Shown here one piece after another: positions 36,868 to 43,613 of a stretch of DNA of 64,000 bases. The position numbers and the translations under genes were made by a program. A model generated the notes under the pieces. It saw nothing but the letters and a program-made list of their open reading frames with translations, did not search any database and had not been told where the DNA came from. The stretch is from Rhodocytophaga rosea (GTDB taxonomy: Bacteria > Bacteroidota > Bacteroidia > Cytophagales > 172606-1), in contig NZ_CP048222.1 in the NCBI RefSeq assembly GCF_010119975.1, forward strand, positions 5,804,501-5,868,500, written 5' to 3'. Every line of letters starts with the position of its first letter. Within the stretch, counting starts at the first letter, position 1.

Positions 36868-38595
36868 CTAAAATACGATCTTCTCCGCCCATTCCAGGCT
36901 ATTCGGTAGGTCAGCAGCCGTAAATTCCATATGAATGACTCGCCGGTGTTTTTGATTGACGGTTTTGGAAGAAGCATGCAGCAGCAAAGGTTTCATTAGG
37001 TGAATGCCCCCACAACCCACTTCGCAGGTAAAGGGCATACTATTCTGGGTGATGAGCGTAATCTCATCATCACTTAGCTTTTTGTTATGCGAACCAGGAA
37101 TCACTTTCAAAGCGCCGTTTTTCTCGTCGGTATCATCAAGGTGAATGCGCAGGGTAAAGGTGTTCTTCAGAATTTCTTCCGGCGGACAAACGCCCACTAT
37201 ATTCTCTTTCTTCGTCCACCCGAAATAGCCTTTGGTTTCTATTTTTTCCTTCACACTAATTGTAGTGTCCTGATGCCAGGCTACATACCAGTTGGATTGA
37301 GGCGGCTTATCAAAATAAATAGCTTTGGACAAAAAAAGCCGTGGATTGATGGCTGAAAGGATAGTTTTCAGGTTCTGGTTGAATAATACCTGTTGTAATC
37401 CTGGTATGGCTTGCAGAAAATTCCGGATGGCATACACTGGCTTGTTATCCTGCGTGGGAGGGAAGTGTTTGGAAATCTGTGTTTTTACATGGTTCATCTC
37501 TTTTCGGGTGTACACATGTTCCAGAATCGAAAAACCATTATGAGTAAGCTTTTTGATCTGATTTTCCAGCCGGGCATTATGAATTTCATAGTTATACTGA
37601 TCCATGGCATCGGTCAGCGTTTCTTTGATGCATCGTTTCAGGCTTTCAGGAGCCAGTACTTTTACAGAATCGCCAAAACCCAGTATTTCTCTCTCCAGTT
37701 CAAAATTATGCTGCACATGAAGAGAAATAACAATGCCATTGCTGTGTGTTTCAACCAGCTTTTGTGAGTGGTGAATCGGTTTGGTAAGTACATAAGGCGC
37801 TGTATTCTGGTTGAAAAACAATACTACATCTACCGGAGCTTGATTTACATTCACAGTAACCCCAATCACATGCTTAAAATATTGCGAAAGATCAATGTCT
37901 ATGCAGGGAATAAAAGTATTGTCGGTTTCTTCAATGCTGATGATCCGGTCTAAAGCCAAAGTAAGCAGAGGTTCTTTTTTGCTTTTGCAGCCCATCACAA
38001 ACCAGCGGTTGCGGTATTCTTTCAGGTAATAGGGATGGAATACAAAACTGCTGGCGGTTCTGGCTTTAAACGACTGGTAGGAGAGGAGCAAGGTCTTTTT
38101 CTTTTGAATCGAGCTATACAGCGTAGTGAGATGCTCAAGTCCTTTGAGGTTGTCGTTTTTTTCAAAATCAATAAAGGTTTCCTGATGTGTTTTAGAAGTG
38201 TAAATTTTGTCTTCCAGCCGTTGCACCATTTCGCCTAGATCTTTAAAATGGCTGAATCCCTTAAATTGCTTGAGTATATCCACTACTTCTGATAGTTTAT
38301 GCAAATCCTGGTCGGTAAGGGGAATATTGGTGATGCTGTAGTCTGAGTCTTCGTAGGCATAGTATTTTTTGTCAATGACAATAATGGGTGCATTGTAGCC
38401 CAGTTTATCGCTGCGCATCATTTGTAAATCGGCTTGTACTGTCCGGCGGCTTACGCCTTTGTCTATGCCTTCATATTCGTAGAGTGCTTCTGAGCAGGCT
38501 TCGATCAGGTCTTCAAGGGTATATTTCCGGTATTTGTTCCGCAGGCAGTTGTCGAGGGTGCGGTAGCGGATGAGGGCATTGCGGTTAACAGGCAT
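36868..38595 (-). CDS. WYL-domain regulator fused to a PhyH-type dioxygenase
   Basis: A 575-residue fusion. The N-terminal part resembles a helix-turn-helix (about 1-85, SRRTVQADLQMMRS), followed by a WYL ligand-sensing domain (about 140-330). From about 350 the sequence is a phytanoyl-CoA-dioxygenase-like Fe(II)/2-oxoglutarate fold. WHQDTT near residue 438 supplies His-X-Asp, LLLHASSKT near 540 the distal His, and HRRVIHMEF the 2-oxoglutarate Arg. WYL proteins often sense nucleic acids or nucleotides. It is divergent from the Ro60 gene across a 486-nt spacer, so it may regulate it; that is inferred. Confidence 0.85.
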   Translation of the reverse strand: MPVNRNALIRYRTLDNCLRNKYRKYTLEDLIEACSEALYEYEGIDKGVSRRTVQADLQMMRSDKLGYNAPIIVIDKKYYAYEDSDYSITNIPLTDQDLHKLSEVVDILKQFKGFSHFKDLGEMVQRLEDKIYTSKTHQETFIDFEKNDNLKGLEHLTTLYSSIQKKKTLLLSYQSFKARTASSFVFHPYYLKEYRNRWFVMGCKSKKEPLLTLALDRIISIEETDNTFIPCIDIDLSQYFKHVIGVTVNVNQAPVDVVLFFNQNTAPYVLTKPIHHSQKLVETHSNGIVISLHVQHNFELEREILGFGDSVKVLAPESLKRCIKETLTDAMDQYNYEIHNARLENQIKKLTHNGFSILEHVYTRKEMNHVKTQISKHFPPTQDNKPVYAIRNFLQAIPGLQQVLFNQNLKTILSAINPRLFLSKAIYFDKPPQSNWYVAWHQDTTISVKEKIETKGYFGWTKKENIVGVCPPEEILKNTFTLRIHLDDTDEKNGALKVIPGSHNKKLSDDEITLITQNSMPFTCEVGCGGIHLMKPLLLHASSKTVNQKHRRVIHMEFTAADLPNSLEWAEKIVF

Positions 38596-38710: not shown

Positions 38711-39004
38711 CAAAAGAAAAAGGCAAAATGAAAAACGCTTCCCCGCTTAAGGCTTCCGCTCACCCCGCTTTTCATTTATACACTCGCGCATGGAATTTTT
38801 TTAATTTTTTGTTGTGGACTTTGCATTACTGTTTTTAGATACATGTATACTGCCTAATAGTATAGATTACTACATTCCCCCTTATCAAAGGGGTAGGGGA
38901 TGTTCTTATTTTTTCTACACAAATATGTTGAGTATAAAGCTACACAATCATGCTTTAGGTGGCTTCTGAAAATATTTTTAAGAAAAATAAAAAAAAGTTT
39001 TTAC

Positions 39005-39042
39005 TGCGCAAAAAGACTGCGCACTGGGCTTGCAACTTTGAA
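39005..39042 (+). promoter_or_regulatory. Putative Ro60 promoter and operator
   Basis: CAACTTTG at 39035-39042 resembles a -7 element with one mismatch (C for T). Just upstream ACTGCGCA occurs twice, at 39005 and 39018, 13 bp apart; each contains the palindrome TGCGCA. These could be sites for the divergent WYL regulator. Confidence 0.4.
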
Positions 39043-39081
39043 TCATCAAATGAAACAAAAGCACAAGTAAACACTACGATC

Positions 39082-40656
39082 ATGAAATTTAATACACTTT
39101 TTAGTAAGGCAAATGAAACAGTGAACTACATGGGCGGAAAAGCTTATATACTTACGCCTGCTTTGGAATTGTATACAACGGTAGTAAGCACCATGCTGGA
39201 TAATTCTTACTATGAAAAGGCTGATGACCGTCTGGTCCGGATCAAGAATCTTGTGCCATTGGTTGATCCTGTTTTTGTAGCAAAGCTTGCTATATATACC
39301 CGTGAAGAAATGTACCTGCGAACTGTTCCATTGGTACTAGTAACCGAATTGGCAAAGGTGCATAAAGGTGATAATCTGGTAAGCCGTACTGTGGAGCGTA
39401 TTGTGCAACGGGCAGATGAAATCACAGAACTGCTGGCGTATTATGAGTTGTCCAATGAAAGAAAAGGAGTTAAAAAACTTAACAAACTTTCCAAACAGAT
39501 ACAGAAAGGCTTAGCAGGCAGTTTTAATAAATTTGATGCCTATCAGTTAGCTAAATATAACCGTGATGCGCATGTAAAGCTAAAAGATGCATTATTTTTA
39601 ATTCACCCAAAAGCTAAAAGTGAAACGCAACAGGAAATATTTAATCAGTTAGTAGCCGATACCTTACCGGTACCTTATACCTGGGAAACAGAATTGTCAA
39701 AGTTAGGACAAATGCCGTTTGGTTCAGAAAAGGAGAAACAAGAGAAAAAGGCTGCAAAATGGGAAGAACTGGTGTTGAGTGGAAAGATAGGCTATATGGC
39801 TTTGTTACGCAACCTTCGCAACATTACTACACAGGGAACAGATCTGGCCGTACAGGCAGCTTTGCAGGTGATTACTGACCGTTCGCGGGTAAAAACTTCT
39901 AAACAATTGCCTTTCCGTTACCTATCAGCCTATGCTGAGCTGGAAACTGAACTGAAAAGCCAGGTTCATGCAGAAAAGGAAAAGAACAGAATCCAGGCTG
40001 CTTTACAGGCGCTTGAAAAGGCAGTAATCATGGCGTCTGATAATATTCCTGTAGCTGATGGAATTACCTTAATTCTTTCTGATAATTCGGGCAGCATGTA
40101 TGGAGATGCTGGAGGCAAGTCTGTAGTATCTGCTATGAGCAAACGTACCACAGCTGATATAGCCAACTTGTTTGCTGTATTGTATTGGATGCGGGCACAA
40201 AACACAATCGTTGGCTTATTTGGCGACAGACTTATTACACCTGAGCTACAGCGGAATAAAAATGTTTTTGAAAACTTTGCCATTGTGAATACAGCTGCAA
40301 AAAAATGTGGAGCCTCTACAGAGCAAGGTATTTTCGATATGATGGAGCAGTTAATAGACACTAAAAAAATGGTAGACCGTATCGTTATTTTCTCCGACTG
40401 CCAGGTGGGTAGCAAATGTAACTGGTATGATCATAAACGCCGGGTAGGAAATGATTTTAATAAATTATTCCAGCACTACCGTAAAATGAATCCGCATGTA
40501 GTTACCTACAGTGTAGATTTAAAAGGGTATGGCAATACATTGTTTGACAAAGGTGTGATGACCATAGGTGGGTGGAGTGAAAAACTGTTTGATATGATGG
40601 TGGCCCTGGAAGAAGGAGAAAGTGTTGTATCCAGCATTGAAAGCATACACTTGTAA
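39082..40656 (+). CDS. rsr: Ro60/Rsr TROVE-vWA RNA-binding protein
   Basis: A 524-residue ring-forming RNA chaperone. The TROVE HEAT-repeat domain covers about 1-330 (NYMGGKAYILTPALELYTTV near the start; LLRNLRNIT near 240). The von Willebrand A domain has a complete DxSxS MIDAS motif (Asp334-Asn-Ser-Gly-Ser338) and a Thr in GASTEQG. Bacterial Ro60 binds Y RNAs and, through them, partners such as PNPase in RNA turnover. I chose the ATG at 39082; an in-frame GTG at 38959 would add 41 basic residues and include the -7 element. Y-RNA-like elements start 11 nt after its stop. Confidence 0.95.
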   Translation: MKFNTLFSKANETVNYMGGKAYILTPALELYTTVVSTMLDNSYYEKADDRLVRIKNLVPLVDPVFVAKLAIYTREEMYLRTVPLVLVTELAKVHKGDNLVSRTVERIVQRADEITELLAYYELSNERKGVKKLNKLSKQIQKGLAGSFNKFDAYQLAKYNRDAHVKLKDALFLIHPKAKSETQQEIFNQLVADTLPVPYTWETELSKLGQMPFGSEKEKQEKKAAKWEELVLSGKIGYMALLRNLRNITTQGTDLAVQAALQVITDRSRVKTSKQLPFRYLSAYAELETELKSQVHAEKEKNRIQAALQALEKAVIMASDNIPVADGITLILSDNSGSMYGDAGGKSVVSAMSKRTTADIANLFAVLYWMRAQNTIVGLFGDRLITPELQRNKNVFENFAIVNTAAKKCGASTEQGIFDMMEQLIDTKKMVDRIVIFSDCQVGSKCNWYDHKRRVGNDFNKLFQHYRKMNPHVVTYSVDLKGYGNTLFDKGVMTIGGWSEKLFDMMVALEEGESVVSSIESIHL

Positions 40657-40666
40657 TTTCTTAACT

Positions 40667-40820
40667 AACAGAGAAGGTGCCGTAGAAAAGTATTTCTTCG
40701 CTTTGGGTGCTAGTGTTCGCAAGAACGTGCAGGTTCGAGTCCTGCTTCCGGTTACTAACCGGAATGGTGGAATGGTAGACACGCTATATAGAGACTTTTC
40801 GCTCATCGCCCTTCTCTGTT
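40667..40820 (+). ncRNA. Y-RNA-like 1 with permuted tRNA-Leu-like domain
   Basis: 154 nt. The outer stem is AACAGAGAAGG with CCTTCTCTGTT (11 bp), the inner stem GAAAAG with CTTTTC. TGCCGTA at 40678, CTTCG 11 nt later, and GCTCATCGC on the 3' side are the shared Y motifs. Inside lies a permuted tRNA module: a variable arm GTTC-GCAA-GAAC, TPsiC arm (40729-40745, TTCGAGT loop), an 8-bp acceptor-like stem TTCCGGTT-ACT-AACCGGAA, then TGGTGGAATGGTAGACACGC, the D-arm sequence of tRNA-Leu. The long variable arm also fits class II tRNA-Leu. It is probably co-transcribed with rsr. The structure is by eye, not computed. Confidence 0.85.
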
Positions 40821-40837
40821 TTATCTGATAAAAGCTT

Positions 40838-40910
40838 AACAGATGCCGTAGGATAGCGTTCCTTCGCAAACTTTAACTTTGAAAACACGCTATCTGCTTG
40901 TTGCTCTGTT
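40838..40910 (+). ncRNA. Y-RNA-like 2, minimal, no tRNA domain
   Basis: 73 nt, 17 nt after element 1. Outer stem AACAGA/TCTGTT, internal loop TGCCGTAG against TGCTTGTTGC, inner stem GATAGCG/CGCTATC (7 bp), then a loop that starts with TTCCTTCGC. The same TGYCGTA-N11-CTTCG spacing is kept, but there is no TPsiC or D arm. It shows what the core Ro-binding module alone looks like. Confidence 0.8.
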
Positions 40911-40927
40911 TTATAAAATAACTGAAT

Positions 40928-41338
40928 ATGGCAAAGCGGAGAAATCTAAATGGTCTTCCTAATATTCTGACACAAAGCTATTTTAGCGCTATGTGTTATT
41001 ATGATAAAGGATTTATGGCAGACTGGATAATTCTGATGGCCAATAGTAAAGGCATCCGGGATGTTGAGATTGATATTTTTAGAGAAGAAGTGAAGCCGAT
41101 TGAATTGCAAGTCCTTCCTATGTTGTATTATCTTCCCAAAATGCGGGAAATCATTATCAAAACCCTGGAAAGTACCGGATTTGAAAAGGATTTTATTACG
41201 GAAGCCGTATTTGATATATATGTTTCTCAAAAATACCGAGCCCTACGGTTGCTTACTTGCCAGTGTACCATTCAAGATAAAGAGGGCCATAGGTATATTG
41301 GAAAAATTTATACAGAAGATGCGTATGAAATAAAGTGA
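40928..41338 (+). CDS. Unknown 136-residue protein inside the Y RNA array
   Basis: A soluble 136-residue protein beginning MAKRRNLNGLPNILTQSYF. I do not recognise a family. It has a central LQVLPMLYYLPKMREIIIKTLESTG helix pair and a C-terminal beta-like stretch with two cysteines (LLTCQCTIQD). No signal peptide or membrane segment. The ATG lies 17 nt after Y element 2 and the stop 11 nt before element 3, so it is embedded in the RNA block and probably part of the same transcript. A role in Y RNA or Ro60 function is only inferred from place. Confidence 0.75.
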   Translation: MAKRRNLNGLPNILTQSYFSAMCYYDKGFMADWIILMANSKGIRDVEIDIFREEVKPIELQVLPMLYYLPKMREIIIKTLESTGFEKDFITEAVFDIYVSQKYRALRLLTCQCTIQDKEGHRYIGKIYTEDAYEIK

Positions 41339-41349
41339 ATTAATTAAAA

Positions 41350-41497
41350 TATAATGGGTGTCGTAGGAAAGCAATACTTCGCTATACTCATTCATGGGTC
41401 GCAGGTTCGAATCCTGCCTCCAGGCAAAAGTCGGGAGTAGCTTAGTAGGTAGAGCAATGAAAAGAAGGCTTTCTGCTTGTAACCCCAAAAATTATAG
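41350..41497 (+). ncRNA. Y-RNA-like 3 with permuted tRNA-like domain
   Basis: 148 nt. Inner stem GAAAGC/GCTTTC; TGTCGTA at 41359, CTTCG 11 nt on, and GCTTGTAAC at 41476. The outer stem is weaker (TATAAT..ATTATA plus GGG/CCC). The tRNA module has a TPsiC arm GCAGG-TTCGAAT-CCTGC, an acceptor-like 8-bp stem CTCCAGGC/GTCGGGAG (one mismatch) closed by AAAA, and a D arm TAGCTTAGTAGGTAGAGCA. ATGAA after the D arm pairs with TTCAT before GGGTC, so even the anticodon stem is intact; the Y stem opens where the anticodon loop would be. Confidence 0.85.
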
Positions 41498-41515
41498 GTC
41501 TAATAAGTAACAACT

Positions 41516-41648
41516 TAGAGTGTCGTATATAAGTCCTGCTTCGACTTTTATTGGAAGGTACAGGTTCGATTCCTGTATCTGGCTTTCCCAAATCTGGCCT
41601 GGTGGTTATGCAAGGTGAGCCAATAGACTTGTAGCTTTTACCTCTAAC
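41516..41648 (+). ncRNA. Y-RNA-like 4, degenerate tRNA-Lys-like domain
   Basis: 133 nt, 18 nt after element 3. Outer stem TTAGAG/CTCTAA, inner stem AAGTC/GACTT. TGTCGTA at 41522, CTTCG 11 nt on, and CTTGTAGC on the 3' side. The TPsiC arm ACAGG-TTCGATT-CCTGT is perfect. TTCGA-CTTTTAT-TGGAA resembles an anticodon arm with a UUU-containing loop. The acceptor-like stem is not convincing and the D arm is unclear, so this copy looks partly decayed. Confidence 0.75.
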
Positions 41649-41655
41649 AATTACT

Positions 41656-41792
41656 ATAAGGTGCCGTAGAACAGCGTTACTTCGCCATCCACGCCGGAGG
41701 TTGTGGGTTCGATTCCCACGCTTTGATGAAGGTCAAAGTTAGTTCAATGGTAGAACGCCGAATATGTACGCTGTGCGCTTGTAGCCCTTTTA
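41656..41792 (+). ncRNA. Y-RNA-like 5 with permuted tRNA-Gly-like domain
   Basis: 137 nt, only 7 nt after element 4. Inner stem ACAGCGT/ACGCTGT (7 bp), a weak outer stem (TATAAGG against CCTTTTA), TGCCGTA at 41663, CTTCG 11 nt on, and GCTTGTAGC at 41777. TPsiC arm GTGGG-TTCGATT-CCCAC; acceptor-like stem GCTTTGA-TGAAGG-TCAAAGT; D arm TAGTTCAATGGTAGAACG, which is typical of tRNA-Gly. ATCCA before the variable loop would contain a Gly UCC anticodon. The isoacceptor link is inferred. Confidence 0.83.
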
Positions 41793-41800
41793 AAATGGTG

Positions 41801-41849
41801 AATGAGTGATTGAGTGAATAATATACGCTGACTTACTCAACCACTCATT
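41801..41849. repeat. Inverted repeat after Y element 5
   Basis: AATGAGTG and TTGAGT pair with ACTCAA and CACTCATT across an 18-nt loop, with one A/C mismatch. A relative with the same AATGAGTGAT core follows Y element 7. Confidence 0.75.
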
Positions 41850-41931
41850 AAATTCTCAGAAAAATGTTGTAAACGGTGTTTACTTTATGTTGCTGGCAAC
41901 ATAAACAATAAACTCTCAAACATAAACCAGT

Positions 41932-42534
41932 ATGTTTACCAACCAGAAACAACTTGATCTCGACATAAATCCAATGTTAGAAAAGAAATACAGACTTTGG
42001 ACATTTCAGGCTACAGAAGCAATAGAGGAACTGAAAACGAAAGGAATACTTCAGATACGTTGGGATGAGTATTCACCCAAAAATAATTTCGTGCCGGCTT
42101 ACCAATGGATGGCGAAACAAATGGAGACAAGGAACATATCTTGTAATAATCATGCGCCTGTATGGGCATGGCATTCTTGCACAACATATGAAAAGGCTCC
42201 CACTTTAGTAGATGCAAGGTGTTTGTTGAGTGACATGCAAATAGAATTTGGCATACAAACCATAGAATTCGAGTGCCCGGCAGAATTGGTGCTTCTATCC
42301 AGATATGGTGAATGGAATGTGATATTTTTCGATTTTTTTCCCTATGATAAAGCTCCCATTGACATTGATAAGAAAACAGAGAACAGGCTATTTGCAACAG
42401 AAAGGAAACAGTTCAGAAAATATGATTCTATTCAGGCCTCCCTGCCTTATTTAAAATTAGAGTGGGTAAAAGACATCAGAGATCTGAATTTGAAACCCGG
42501 AGACCGTACTTATAATAAAAAAGAACTGGTATAA
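41932..42534 (+). CDS. DUF3841 domain protein within the Y RNA array
   Basis: A 200-residue soluble protein. YRLWTFQATEAIEELKTKGILQIRW near the start and AYQWMAKQMETRN...PVWAWHSC fit the DUF3841 family, whose function is unknown. The length is normal for the family. It lies in the same direction between Y elements 5 and 6, separated by 139 nt holding a hairpin and by 31 nt. It is probably expressed with the Ro60 locus; any functional link is inferred from position. Confidence 0.82.
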   Translation: MFTNQKQLDLDINPMLEKKYRLWTFQATEAIEELKTKGILQIRWDEYSPKNNFVPAYQWMAKQMETRNISCNNHAPVWAWHSCTTYEKAPTLVDARCLLSDMQIEFGIQTIEFECPAELVLLSRYGEWNVIFFDFFPYDKAPIDIDKKTENRLFATERKQFRKYDSIQASLPYLKLEWVKDIRDLNLKPGDRTYNKKELV

Positions 42535-42565
42535 CAAAGCGTAATTAACAGCGCATATACCATAC

Positions 42566-42703
42566 AGAAGGATGTCGTAAACATTGAGATACTTCGCTGC
42601 CATTAGGGGAGGAATATCATAGCTGCCACTGTGCAGCAAAGGTATCCGGGTTCGACTCCCGGCAAGCGCTGCCCCGAACCTCAGGTTGCCTGTTACTCCT
42701 TCT
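42566..42703 (+). ncRNA. Y-RNA-like 6, TPsiC arm only
   Basis: 138 nt, 31 nt after the DUF3841 stop. Outer stem AGAAGGA/TCCTTCT (7 bp), inner stem TTGAG/CTCAG. TGTCGTA at 42573, CTTCG 12 nt on (all other copies have 11), and GCCTGTTAC at 42688. The TPsiC arm CCGGG-TTCGACT-CCCGG is perfect, but I find no D arm; instead there is a GCTGC/GCAGC hairpin and a short GGCA/TGCC hairpin. This is a diverged member of the set. Confidence 0.78.
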
Positions 42704-42818
42704 TTATCAAGATATTCAACAATTTACTGTCACATTTATGAAAAAGGAAGATAAGAAACGTAAATATTGTCTGTAGCAGCCATCCAGCTGGGTACTATGG
42801 GCAAACAACAGAAGTTTT

Positions 42819-42892
42819 GTGCCCGTAGCTCAGTTGGTGGTAGCACCTGCCTTTTAAGCAGGGGGTCGGGGGTTCAAGTCCCTCCGGGCATA
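42819..42892 (+). tRNA. tRNA-Lys (anticodon UUU)
   Basis: Cloverleaf in normal order: acceptor GTGCCCG/CGGGCAT (7 bp including one G-U), D arm GCTCAGTTGGTGGTAGC with one mismatch, anticodon arm CCTGC-CTTTTAA-GCAGG, variable loop GGGTC, TPsiC arm GGGGG-TTCAAGT-CCCTC, discriminator A. CCA is not encoded. The imperfect D stem makes a tRNA mimic or a decaying gene possible. Confidence 0.75.
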
Positions 42893-42903
42893 CAACAAAT
42901 AAA

Positions 42904-43042
42904 ATAGGTGTCGTACAATTGTCTTACTTCGACTTTTAATCGGTAGGTCGCGGGTTCGAGTCCCGCTTCCGGCTCTCATTTTAACGTATGCCGGAATAGC
43001 TCAGCGGATAGAGCAACATAGACATTTGGCTTGTTACCCTAT
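42904..43042 (+). ncRNA. Y-RNA-like 7 with permuted tRNA-Lys-like domain
   Basis: 139 nt, 11 nt after tRNA-Lys(UUU). Outer stem ATAGG/CCTAT, inner stem CAATTGTCT/AGACATTTG (one mismatch). TGTCGTA at 42909, CTTCG 11 nt on, and GCTTGTTAC at 43029. The TPsiC arm GCGGG-TTCGAGT-CCCGC is perfect. The acceptor stem TTCCGGC/GCCGGAA is a perfect 7 bp closed by a 16-nt linker, and the D arm is TAGCTCAGCGGATAGAGCA. A CTTTTAA loop identical to a tRNA-Lys anticodon loop lies just after CTTCG. This is the clearest permuted tRNA of the set. Confidence 0.88.
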
Positions 43043-43048
43043 ATAAAT

Positions 43049-43194
43049 GGTGATTAAGCGAATGAGTGATCGTCTGGAACCTGGATATATCAAATTCTAG
43101 GATTGTCAGGATTAAGATGTTGAAAGTATAGGAGTCAATTCTCAGGTTATACACTAAATTTTCACTCACTCCATCACCCAATCACTCATTCACC
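43049..43194. repeat. Long inverted repeat after Y element 7
   Basis: GAATGAGTGAT at 43060-43070 pairs perfectly with ATCACTCATTC at 43181-43191, with GGTG/CACC outside and AACCTG/CAGGTT nested inside. The 110-nt interior holds a GGATTGTCAGGATTAAG stretch like interspersed repeats I recall from other Cytophagales. It shares its core with the repeat after Y element 5. Confidence 0.75.
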
Positions 43195-43199
43195 TATTC

Positions 43200-43389
43200 G
43201 CCTCTGTAGCTCAATCCTGGAAGAGCGGGGAAAAAAGCCTGATATCGCCTGTCGCAGACTCGGGGTTGCGGAAGCACCTATAGCGGCTTCGCTTTGGCGG
43301 AGCGGTGACCCAACTAGCAAGGGAAGCACATTATCCCTGGAGTCATGCTAACCCAAAAGGGAGTGCCGGTTCGAGTCCGGTCAGAGGAA
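43200..43389 (+). ncRNA. tRNA-like RNA with 138-nt insert in the anticodon region
   Basis: Here the tRNA parts are in normal order: CCTCTG (acceptor), GCTC..GAGC D arm, then 138 nt, then TPsiC arm GCCGG-TTCGAGT-CCGGT and CAGAGG closing the acceptor (6 bp). The insert begins GGGG and ends CCC before a variable-like stretch. It contains GACTC/GAGTC flanked by TGTCGCA and GCTAAC, which loosely resemble the Y motifs, and a GCTTCGC-TTTG-GCGGAGC hairpin. It may be the unpermuted counterpart of the Y elements. It is not a normal tRNA, and I find no group I intron core. Confidence 0.65.
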
Positions 43390-43396
43390 CAATCAT

Positions 43397-43427
43397 AGCC
43401 TTAATCTAAAAGAATTAAGGCTTTTTT
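43397..43427 (+). terminator. Terminator of the Ro60-Y RNA block
   Basis: A 9-bp stem AGCCTTAAT/ATTAAGGCT, an 8-nt loop and TTTTT. It lies 8 nt after the tRNA-like RNA. Confidence 0.9.

Positions 43428-43540: not shown

Positions 43541-43613
<73 letters not shown>

Follow-up and report, generated by a model that had tools for sequence, protein, structure and literature searches.

Anticodon Arms in the Permuted tRNA-Like Y RNAs of Bacteroidota Ro60 Loci: Possible Decoys for Anticodon-Cutting Nucleases

Introduction

The Ro60 (rsr) gene of Rhodocytophaga rosea (Bacteroidota, Cytophagales) is followed by an array of seven Y RNA-like elements located in a 64,000-nucleotide stretch of contig NZ_CP048222.1 (positions 5,804,501 to 5,868,500 of the forward strand), which is designated here as the window. 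Comparison of these elements with those of related loci indicates, at the level of sequence, that in a large class of them a permuted tRNA is complete and includes an anticodon arm, a feature that was not seen in a preliminary description of the locus. Y RNAs beside Ro60 are already known, and it is the display of an anticodon that appears to be new relative to the descriptions of YrlA-type Y RNAs that were found. No report of anticodon arms in Y RNAs was met in the literature covered, which was incomplete and did not extend to the papers defining YrlA.

The favoured explanation is that the Y RNAs are Ro60-held decoys for anticodon-cutting nucleases, with an estimated probability of about 0.43, followed in order by recruitment of PNPase, mimicry directed at modification enzymes, relics of captured tRNA genes, and permuted pre-tRNAs. 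It is preferred because the part of tRNA read by such nucleases is present, varied, and fast-changing, the acceptor end is closed, RNA repair genes lie nearby in some families, and the arrays occur in both bacteria and phages. The comparative evidence consists of the anatomy of the arm, its compensatory changes, the mimicry of tRNA loops, the association with Ro60 and, for certain families, also with RtcB, and the phage copies, while transcription of the elements, their binding by Ro60, and their action as decoys are inferred.

Composite Anticodon Arm

In this class of elements the predicted Ro60-binding stem interrupts the 5' strand of the anticodon stem between tRNA positions 28/29 and 30. 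The outer anticodon pairs are formed by the 2-3 bases after the D arm and the inner pairs by the CG(N) of a conserved CTTCG, giving a composite arm with a 5-bp stem and a 7-nt loop; the role of CTTCG as the 5' strand was first noticed by eye and then tested. The element at 42909 (Y RNA 7, a complete permuted tRNA at 42901..43045 on the + strand) has the order CTTCGA, CTTTTAA, TCGGT, AGGTC, T arm, acceptor strand, loop, acceptor strand, TA, and D arm, with the exact spacing of a tRNA from position 32 on. Its composite 5-bp anticodon stem, with the outer strand at 43016-43018, carries the loop CTTTTAA (triplet TTT, Lys) at 42933-42939, which is identical to the loop of the tRNA-Lys(TTT) of the same genome.

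The structure was examined in an alignment of 29 sequences (A1), where the two outer anticodon pairs are standard in 29/29 with 18 and 17 double changes, and the third outer pair fails in 11. As a whole the structure is 92.8% paired in comparison with 64.5% after shuffling and 38-47% after sliding. Basal stems 1 and 2 covary as well, and the Y of the TGYCGTA motif pairs with the R of NRC on the 3' strand (CG in 21 and UA in 8 of 29). The preliminary description had staked its proposal on compensatory changes in homologous loci; the test was run and the proposal survived it, such changes being abundant.

The related loci were collected in two ways. The Ro60-picked set of 24 loci, the window included, came from one genome set (a match in 12 of 39) and from 11 contigs obtained by a scan of named genomes, eight of Hymenobacter or Hymenobacteraceae, one of Dyadobacter, and two of other metagenome-assembled genomes; a 25th locus, the short stretch L019, was also scanned and contained no elements. 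A further 60 loci were picked by a covariance model (R1), for which 29 elements were used, including three of the window; in the total of 84, three loci repeat a contig already included. Spacing was regarded as right when a T arm followed CTTCG at 20-25 nt, for which 48 of 115 elements in the 25 scanned loci qualified and one was skipped. All five pairs of the composite stem are present in 32 of the resulting 47 elements, and the outer pairs in 75/94 cases, against a mean of 38.9 when the D side was shuffled among elements (maximum 59 in 10,000). The model used to pick the 60 loci includes the anticodon arm, and the set of 47 is free of such selection. Over all loci 76 of 119 non-redundant right-spacing elements have the five pairs (null 6.2, maximum 13); among held-out elements unlike those of A1 the stem is found in 48/79, where the null gives 4.1 (maximum 14) and a shuffle of the D side alone 9.0 (maximum 20), all these anticodon-stem shuffles ignoring relatedness among elements.

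Outside the full-stem group the picture is mixed. A run of 4-5 pairs on the D side only, as in the YrlA consensus, occurs in 12 of the other 43 right-spacing elements, including that at 41359 (raw count). Of 55 non-redundant elements without a T arm, eight have a hairpin of 5 bp with a 7-nt loop, U33, and a purine at position 37 (null 2.3, maximum 7), three of them with a loop of a tRNA of the window's genome (null 0.04), and among 78 elements with the T arm more than 25 nt on there are 12 such hairpins (null 3.0, maximum 9), four with a loop of this kind (null 0.05); none was found in 32 elements of shorter spacing. The composite stem as a class property of elements that have a long variable arm together with all the other arms was considered and rejected at 10/44 versus a null of 7.2, three of these ten being the 23S-copy elements described below.

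Anticodon Loops and Their Rate of Change

Among the 76 full-stem elements U33 is present in 67 and a purine at position 37 in 72, and the displayed triplets are of 32 kinds, the commonest being TTT with 12 occurrences. In comparisons made with the tRNAs of the window's genome only, here called host tRNAs, 30 of the 76 loops are equal to one of 35 host tRNA loops, against a mean of 5.2 and a maximum of 13 when the loop columns were shuffled. The triplet is also the fastest-changing part of the element. In raw counts over 73 nearest-neighbour pairs of full-stem elements from different loci, which share members, it differs at 67/192 sites, followed by 305/1148 in stem 1, 59/254 at the other loop positions, 128/556 in the acceptor loop, 45/507 in the T loop, 100/1246 in the D arm, and 1/362 in CTTCG. 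Fastest change at the displayed triplet is what an arms race would predict.

These observations bear on the possibility that the tRNA-like domain serves to bring PNPase, as in RYPER, or some other effector to Ro60, with the anticodon arm being a structural passenger. A Ro60-Y RNA-PNPase machine has been published (reviewed in PMC8394870), many elements have no anticodon loop, and a T arm is missing in 66 of the 357 distinct elements; yet loops of 7 nt with U33 and a purine 37, copying those of real tRNAs, would hardly be retained in a passenger, and the status of the triplet as the fastest-changing part also speaks against it. This explanation is considered unlikely, though it stands first among the alternatives to decoys.

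Co-Occurrence with Ro60 and RNA-Repair Genes

Elements were found in 81 of the 84 loci, from 1 to 11 per locus, 381 in all and 357 of them distinct. In stretches with a Ro60 match their strand is that of Ro60 in 362/362 cases; 9 of the 60 model-picked stretches had no Ro60 match. At the order level a strong R1 match and TROVE, the Ro60 domain, are found together in 67 genomes, the RNA alone in 2, TROVE alone in 3, and neither in 219, which means TROVE in 67/69 genomes with a strong match versus 3/222 without. The cut-off for a strong match (E <=1e-12) was chosen after the table was seen, because R1 at its widest matched 252/291 genomes and weak matches resemble ordinary tRNAs. In a sample of the phylum 32/395 genomes matched at 1e-10 or better, some over the tRNA-like part alone.

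The size of the array and its mixture with protein genes and a tRNA had been taken as the unusual part of the locus. As to size this did not hold, since at least two elements are present in 22 of the 24 Ro60-picked loci (the exceptions being L033, where the stretch ends inside Ro60, and L035) and at least three in 19, with up to 11. The mixture is a local feature of an otherwise common array, for the two protein genes within it, a 136-aa open reading frame (ORF; 40928..41338, + strand, no Pfam match at E 1) and a DUF3841 protein gene (41932..42534, + strand, PF12952 E 2.9e-11), were not found by tblastn in the 83 related stretches, and with 0/83 they were rejected as parts of the system.

RtcB is encoded in 39 of the 83 related loci, three of them second fetches. 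It lies on the strand of the array in 35/35 loci that keep distinct elements and less than 600 bases from the nearest element in 30. Other neighbours of the arrays are PARG-like and PcfJ-like proteins, in 8 loci each, and two kinds of the RNA-repair protein RlaP, in 4 loci each. As a separate observation, minimal Y RNAs near RtcB at L026:12400 (a named Hymenobacter), L131:2068 (- strand), and L134:3546 (- strand) have a 5-bp hairpin with the loop CTGTCAC, the anticodon loop of the host tRNA-Asp.

Phage Copies

Ro60 matches occur in 93 phage records, from which 11 stretches were looked at, and R1 matched at 1e-13 or better in six: the Caulobacter jumbo phages CcrColossus and CcrPW, Brevundimonas phage Domovoi, the crAss-like csAssE-Sib, the Microcystis phage Mvi-JY20, and Bacillus phage G. 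In each of the two Caulobacter phages seven matches lie upstream of Ro60; in one orthologous pair the anticodons are CTG and TAG, and the Brevundimonas counterpart reads GTG (by eye). An anticodon loop would not fit into the csAssE-Sib element. In stretches of putative viral contigs found by pattern, R1 matched at 1e-6 or better in 10/30.

Elements Copying 23S rRNA

Four elements of 245-254 nt, in L153 (2820, - strand), L159 (2899, - strand), L174 (1041), and L175 (1995, - strand), carry an insert copied from 23S rRNA, and a fifth such place lies in L145 near 5930, where the 3' end was missed by the script. The insert starts with TAACTATAACGR, and 24-33 nt of it match the host 23S rRNA at 92-97%; the match falls in the large subunit (LSU) rRNA of Rfam, in a region that we take to be helix 69. 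In these elements CTTCG or CCTCG again opens the hairpin. No Ro60 match was present within the examined stretches of L159 and L174. A comparison of the element sequences with the two rRNA operons of the host gave nothing below E 1e-4 except this type.

Another possibility is that enzymes which modify or bind RNA, and which read anticodon loops and the copied 23S part, have Y RNAs as their sponges or quality-control substrates. It is favoured by the existence of the copies and by the fact that helix 69 is a known pseudouridylation site. YrlA itself is modified by DusA and TruB (PMC8394870). Taken alone, this explanation would leave both the RtcB and RlaP genes beside the arrays and the rapid change of the triplet unaccounted for, and it is regarded as improbable.

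Proposed Role and Points against It

According to the decoy explanation, Ro60 would bind the shared basal stem, in which TGNCGTA faces GCTTGTNRC, and keep the RNAs stable. In the main class the Ro60 stem is inserted into an otherwise complete tRNA with the acceptor end closed by a loop, which would bar the mimics from aminoacylation and translation. The displayed anticodon arms, many with loops of real tRNAs, would occupy or absorb tRNA-anticodon nucleases, and RtcB, encoded beside the arrays in many relatives and elsewhere in the host genome, would reseal the cut tRNAs and possibly cut the decoys. In a wider and more doubtful form, the Ro60 loci of Bacteroidota and some jumbo phages may encode a changeable library of protein-held decoys showing the sites cut by ribotoxins; tentatively, many tRNAs would be represented by their anticodon arms and, in a few genomes, 23S rRNA by a hairpin region. 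If the elements are decoys, each of them predicts which tRNA, and hence which nuclease, it is to protect; phage copies with different anticodons would link Ro60 to the phage-host conflict, and, to judge from the 23S copies, further targets can be displayed by Y RNAs as well.

Both tRNA decay and inhibition of anticodon nucleases are named as candidate roles of bacterial Ro60 and Y RNAs, and YrlA has been proposed to inhibit an anticodon nuclease by competition (PMC7790460).

Several observations weigh against the decoy role or restrict it. Salmonella YrlA gave no detected fragments under conditions in which tRNAs were cleaved (PMC7790460), a result limited by the lack of an anticodon loop in that RNA. 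The composite stem is missing in 43/119 non-redundant right-spacing elements and present in three of the seven window elements, one of them without U33. In A1 only 61.8% of the cells for the inner pairs, in the register drawn, hold a standard pair, because the register differs by one base between elements, and the RNAalifold consensus of A1 leaves the anticodon region unpaired, inner and outer pairs alike. Anticodon diversity within loci is as expected, 2/35 pairs being equal with 1.9 expected, and by this comparison a non-redundant anticodon set per genome was rejected. RtcB is absent from the window, and most of the loci where it is present come from a single family, to which the named Hymenobacter belong, the others being L030 (Dyadobacter), L119, L156, and L168. 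Five of the 11 Ro60 phage stretches had no array in the R1 search, and the 23S copies fit a mimicry broader than that of anticodons. Finally, in 21/71 elements a host tRNA of the anticodon's isotype ranks among the three best matches of the body, against a null of 12.5, and 13/5000 shuffles reach this count of 21; five of the 76 full-stem elements had no comparable host isotype and were left out.

This weak isotype trace fits an origin of the bodies from particular tRNAs, and it is shared by two further explanations. The elements may be relics of tRNA genes repeatedly captured by recombination, with no selection for anticodon display, as the occurrence of degenerate elements and of ordinary tRNAs within and near the arrays would also suggest. 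Against this, the best host body match is of the anticodon's isotype in just 3/71 elements (null 3.8), and the composite stem is maintained by compensatory change, so that the relic origin seems improbable too and is ranked after the sponges.

The other explanation considers the elements as permuted pre-tRNAs: as happens in red algae, excision followed by joining, for which RtcB is one candidate, would turn them into functional tRNAs. The permuted order is the same, a 5-bp anticodon stem would remain once the Ro60 stem was removed, and RtcB is frequent near the arrays. The same off-isotype best match, measured with the tRNAs of the window's genome only, contradicts it, and so do acceptor closing loops of <=6 nt in 53/134 elements (including GCAA, GAAA, and TTCG), which leave little space for the discriminator and CCA, the occurrence of the stop-reading triplets TTA and CTA among the elements, and the presence of at least 40 ordinary tRNA matches in the host genome. 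It is the most improbable of the explanations compared. As a side observation on tRNAs in arrays, the element at 1312 (- strand) of L020 is immediately followed by a tRNA-Tyr-like sequence whose T loop seems, by eye, to contain an insert.

Relation to Known Systems

YrlA is described as having D, T, and acceptor arms, is bound by Ro60, and forms RYPER with PNPase; the structure of Salmonella YrlA is PDB 6CU1 (both in PMC8394870). The present elements share with YrlA (RF02553) the Ro60 neighbourhood and the T arm, closed acceptor, and D arm in permuted order, and with its Rfam consensus the 3' strand cUuGucGcc and the outer anticodon-stem pairs cgcc/ggcg. They differ from YrlA as described there in the added anticodon hairpin, the conserved CTTCG, and the arrangement in arrays, and the composite arm of the 76 elements departs from the D/T/acceptor-only layout. 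The relation to YrlA that the preliminary description had drawn is borne out by three elements matching RF02553 at 34.5-35.2 bits (E 4.7e-5 to 7.5e-5). The gathering score of the family is 69 bits, which neither the window nor 17 further stretches reached, and assignment to the ordinary Rfam YrlA family was rejected.

The Salmonella rsr-yrlBA-rtcBA operon (PMC7790460) likewise brings together Ro60, Y RNAs, and RtcB, an association found in many relatives and not in the window, but the divergent WYL-type gene and the many anticodon-armed Y RNAs are seen here and not in the operon as described. In a survey of jumbo phages TROVE proteins are presented as an RNA-repair platform with a tRNA-like partner (PMC7824862). 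Phage tRNAs that evade retrons or other defences (PMC11555353) resemble the elements in that both would supply an anticodon target; those are specific tRNAs, whereas here the acceptor is closed and a Ro60 stem is present. In the permuted tRNA genes of algae and archaea (PMC3978253, PMC3218864) the 3' half also precedes the 5' half, and the difference is that here no signs of maturation were found, the bodies are mostly off-isotype, and the acceptor is often closed by a short loop.

The Seven Elements of the Window

All seven TGYCGTA-N11/12-CTTCG elements that had been pointed out downstream of the Ro60 gene exist. The TGYCGTA starts at 40678, 40844, 41359, 42573, and 42909 are exact, and two others, given as 41522 and 41663, are to be corrected to 41521 and 41662. 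CTTCG follows at 11 nt, or 12 nt in 42573, six of the seven have a T arm (none was found in 40844), and a 3' strand like GCTTGTNRC is present in each, reading from 40678 to 42909 GCTCATCGC, GCTTGTTGC, GCTTGTAAC, GCTTTTAC(C), GCTTGTAGC, GCCTGTTAC, and GCTTGTTAC, where the motif of 41521 was assigned by hand as the scripted rule did not catch it. The T, D, and acceptor arms of the tRNA-like domain are found in five of the seven, and the statement that most are permuted is true of five (40678, 41359, 41521, 41662, and 42909), that at 42573 not being permuted. The pattern TGYCGTA-N9-14-CTTCG has 11 matches in the whole 8.98 Mb genome, seven of them within 2.2 kb on one strand, and a reversed control pattern has 23 (11 and 12 per strand); a chance motif is thus rejected by this clustering, not by the total number, which is not above chance. 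R1 recovers all seven elements at E 1.4e-7 to 4.8e-33, the lowest value being that of Y RNA 7, with an ordinary tRNA near 43570 as the best other match (5e-4).

All the elements lie on the + strand. Y RNA 1 (40670..40817, R1 E 6.5e-21) is a permuted tRNA with a Leu-like body and a variable arm, whose composite 5-bp anticodon stem carries the loop TTTGGGT at 40702-40708; it belongs to the long elements for which, taken together, this stem is no more frequent than the null (10/44, see above). Y RNA 2 (40836..40912, R1 E 1.1e-10) is minimal, without a T arm, and is predicted by folding to form the hairpin CAAA-CTTTAAC-TTTG. Y RNA 3 (41351..41491, R1 E 2e-27) and Y RNA 4 (41513..41649, R1 E 1.4e-13, with a weak D arm) are permuted tRNAs with a continuous stem and no anticodon hairpin: in the former the D-side anticodon stem is ATGAA/TTCAT (a run of at least 4 pairs, 5 by eye), and in the latter the stem is CCAAT/ATTGG (by eye), the composite stem having just 3 pairs. 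Y RNA 5 (41654..41793, R1 E 1.4e-30, Rfam YrlA 35.2 bits, the best of the elements) is a complete permuted tRNA with an Asp-like D arm and a composite 5-bp anticodon stem, and its loop CATCCAC at 41686-41692 is the one without U33. Y RNA 6 (42565..42704, R1 E 1.4e-7), with a T arm and in non-permuted order, has the closing helix GGGG...CCCC (by eye).

Other Features of the Locus

The Ro60 gene itself (39082..40656, + strand) matches the TROVE domain PF05731 at E 4.8e-27, in agreement with the preliminary description of a Ro60 locus. Its start had been placed at GTG 38959; ATG 39082 is probably correct, because a conserved leader lies in the stretch between the two. In the leader alignment of 27 sequences (the window and 26 blastn matches from 24 loci) an inverted repeat is kept, which in the window is CTGCGCA-AAAAGAC-TGCGCAC (39004..39024, + strand) and has the consensus CT.CGCAAAAAGacTGCGcA, also written CTRCGCA-N7-TGCGYA; it is a candidate operator. 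Further on, CAACTTTG (39033..39040, + strand), kept in the alignment as cAaCTTTG, resembles the -7 promoter box of Bacteroidota. In L036 and L037 the leader occurs twice, the copies being about 3.2 kb apart.

The divergent gene (36868..38595, - strand) encodes a protein with WYL, WCX, and PhyH-like domains (Pfam E 1e-10, 5.5e-12, and 3.5e-11, respectively), and its homologue is present in 12 of the 83 related loci. By its domains and position this protein is a candidate regulator of the Ro60 locus, which may bind the inverted repeat of the leader.

Within the array an ordinary tRNA-Lys with anticodon TTT (42819..42893, + strand; ARAGORN, Rfam 63.5 bits) is located. Downstream, at 43198-43396, tRNA-like ends in ordinary order (GCCTCTG and D arm; T arm and CAGAGGA) are split by an insert of about 130 nt, for which folding energy gave no excess of structure (z -0.25) and blastn no match among the 83 related stretches. 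Elsewhere in the host genome two tandem tRNAs (L074, G000:C1:3897501-3897650) are read by ARAGORN with the four-base anticodons cgag and ctta, that is, with 8-nt anticodon loops, and a tRNA-like gene (L084, G000:C1:3904935-3905050), not called by ARAGORN, matches the Rfam tRNA family at 50.4 bits and has an apparent insert in the anticodon region.

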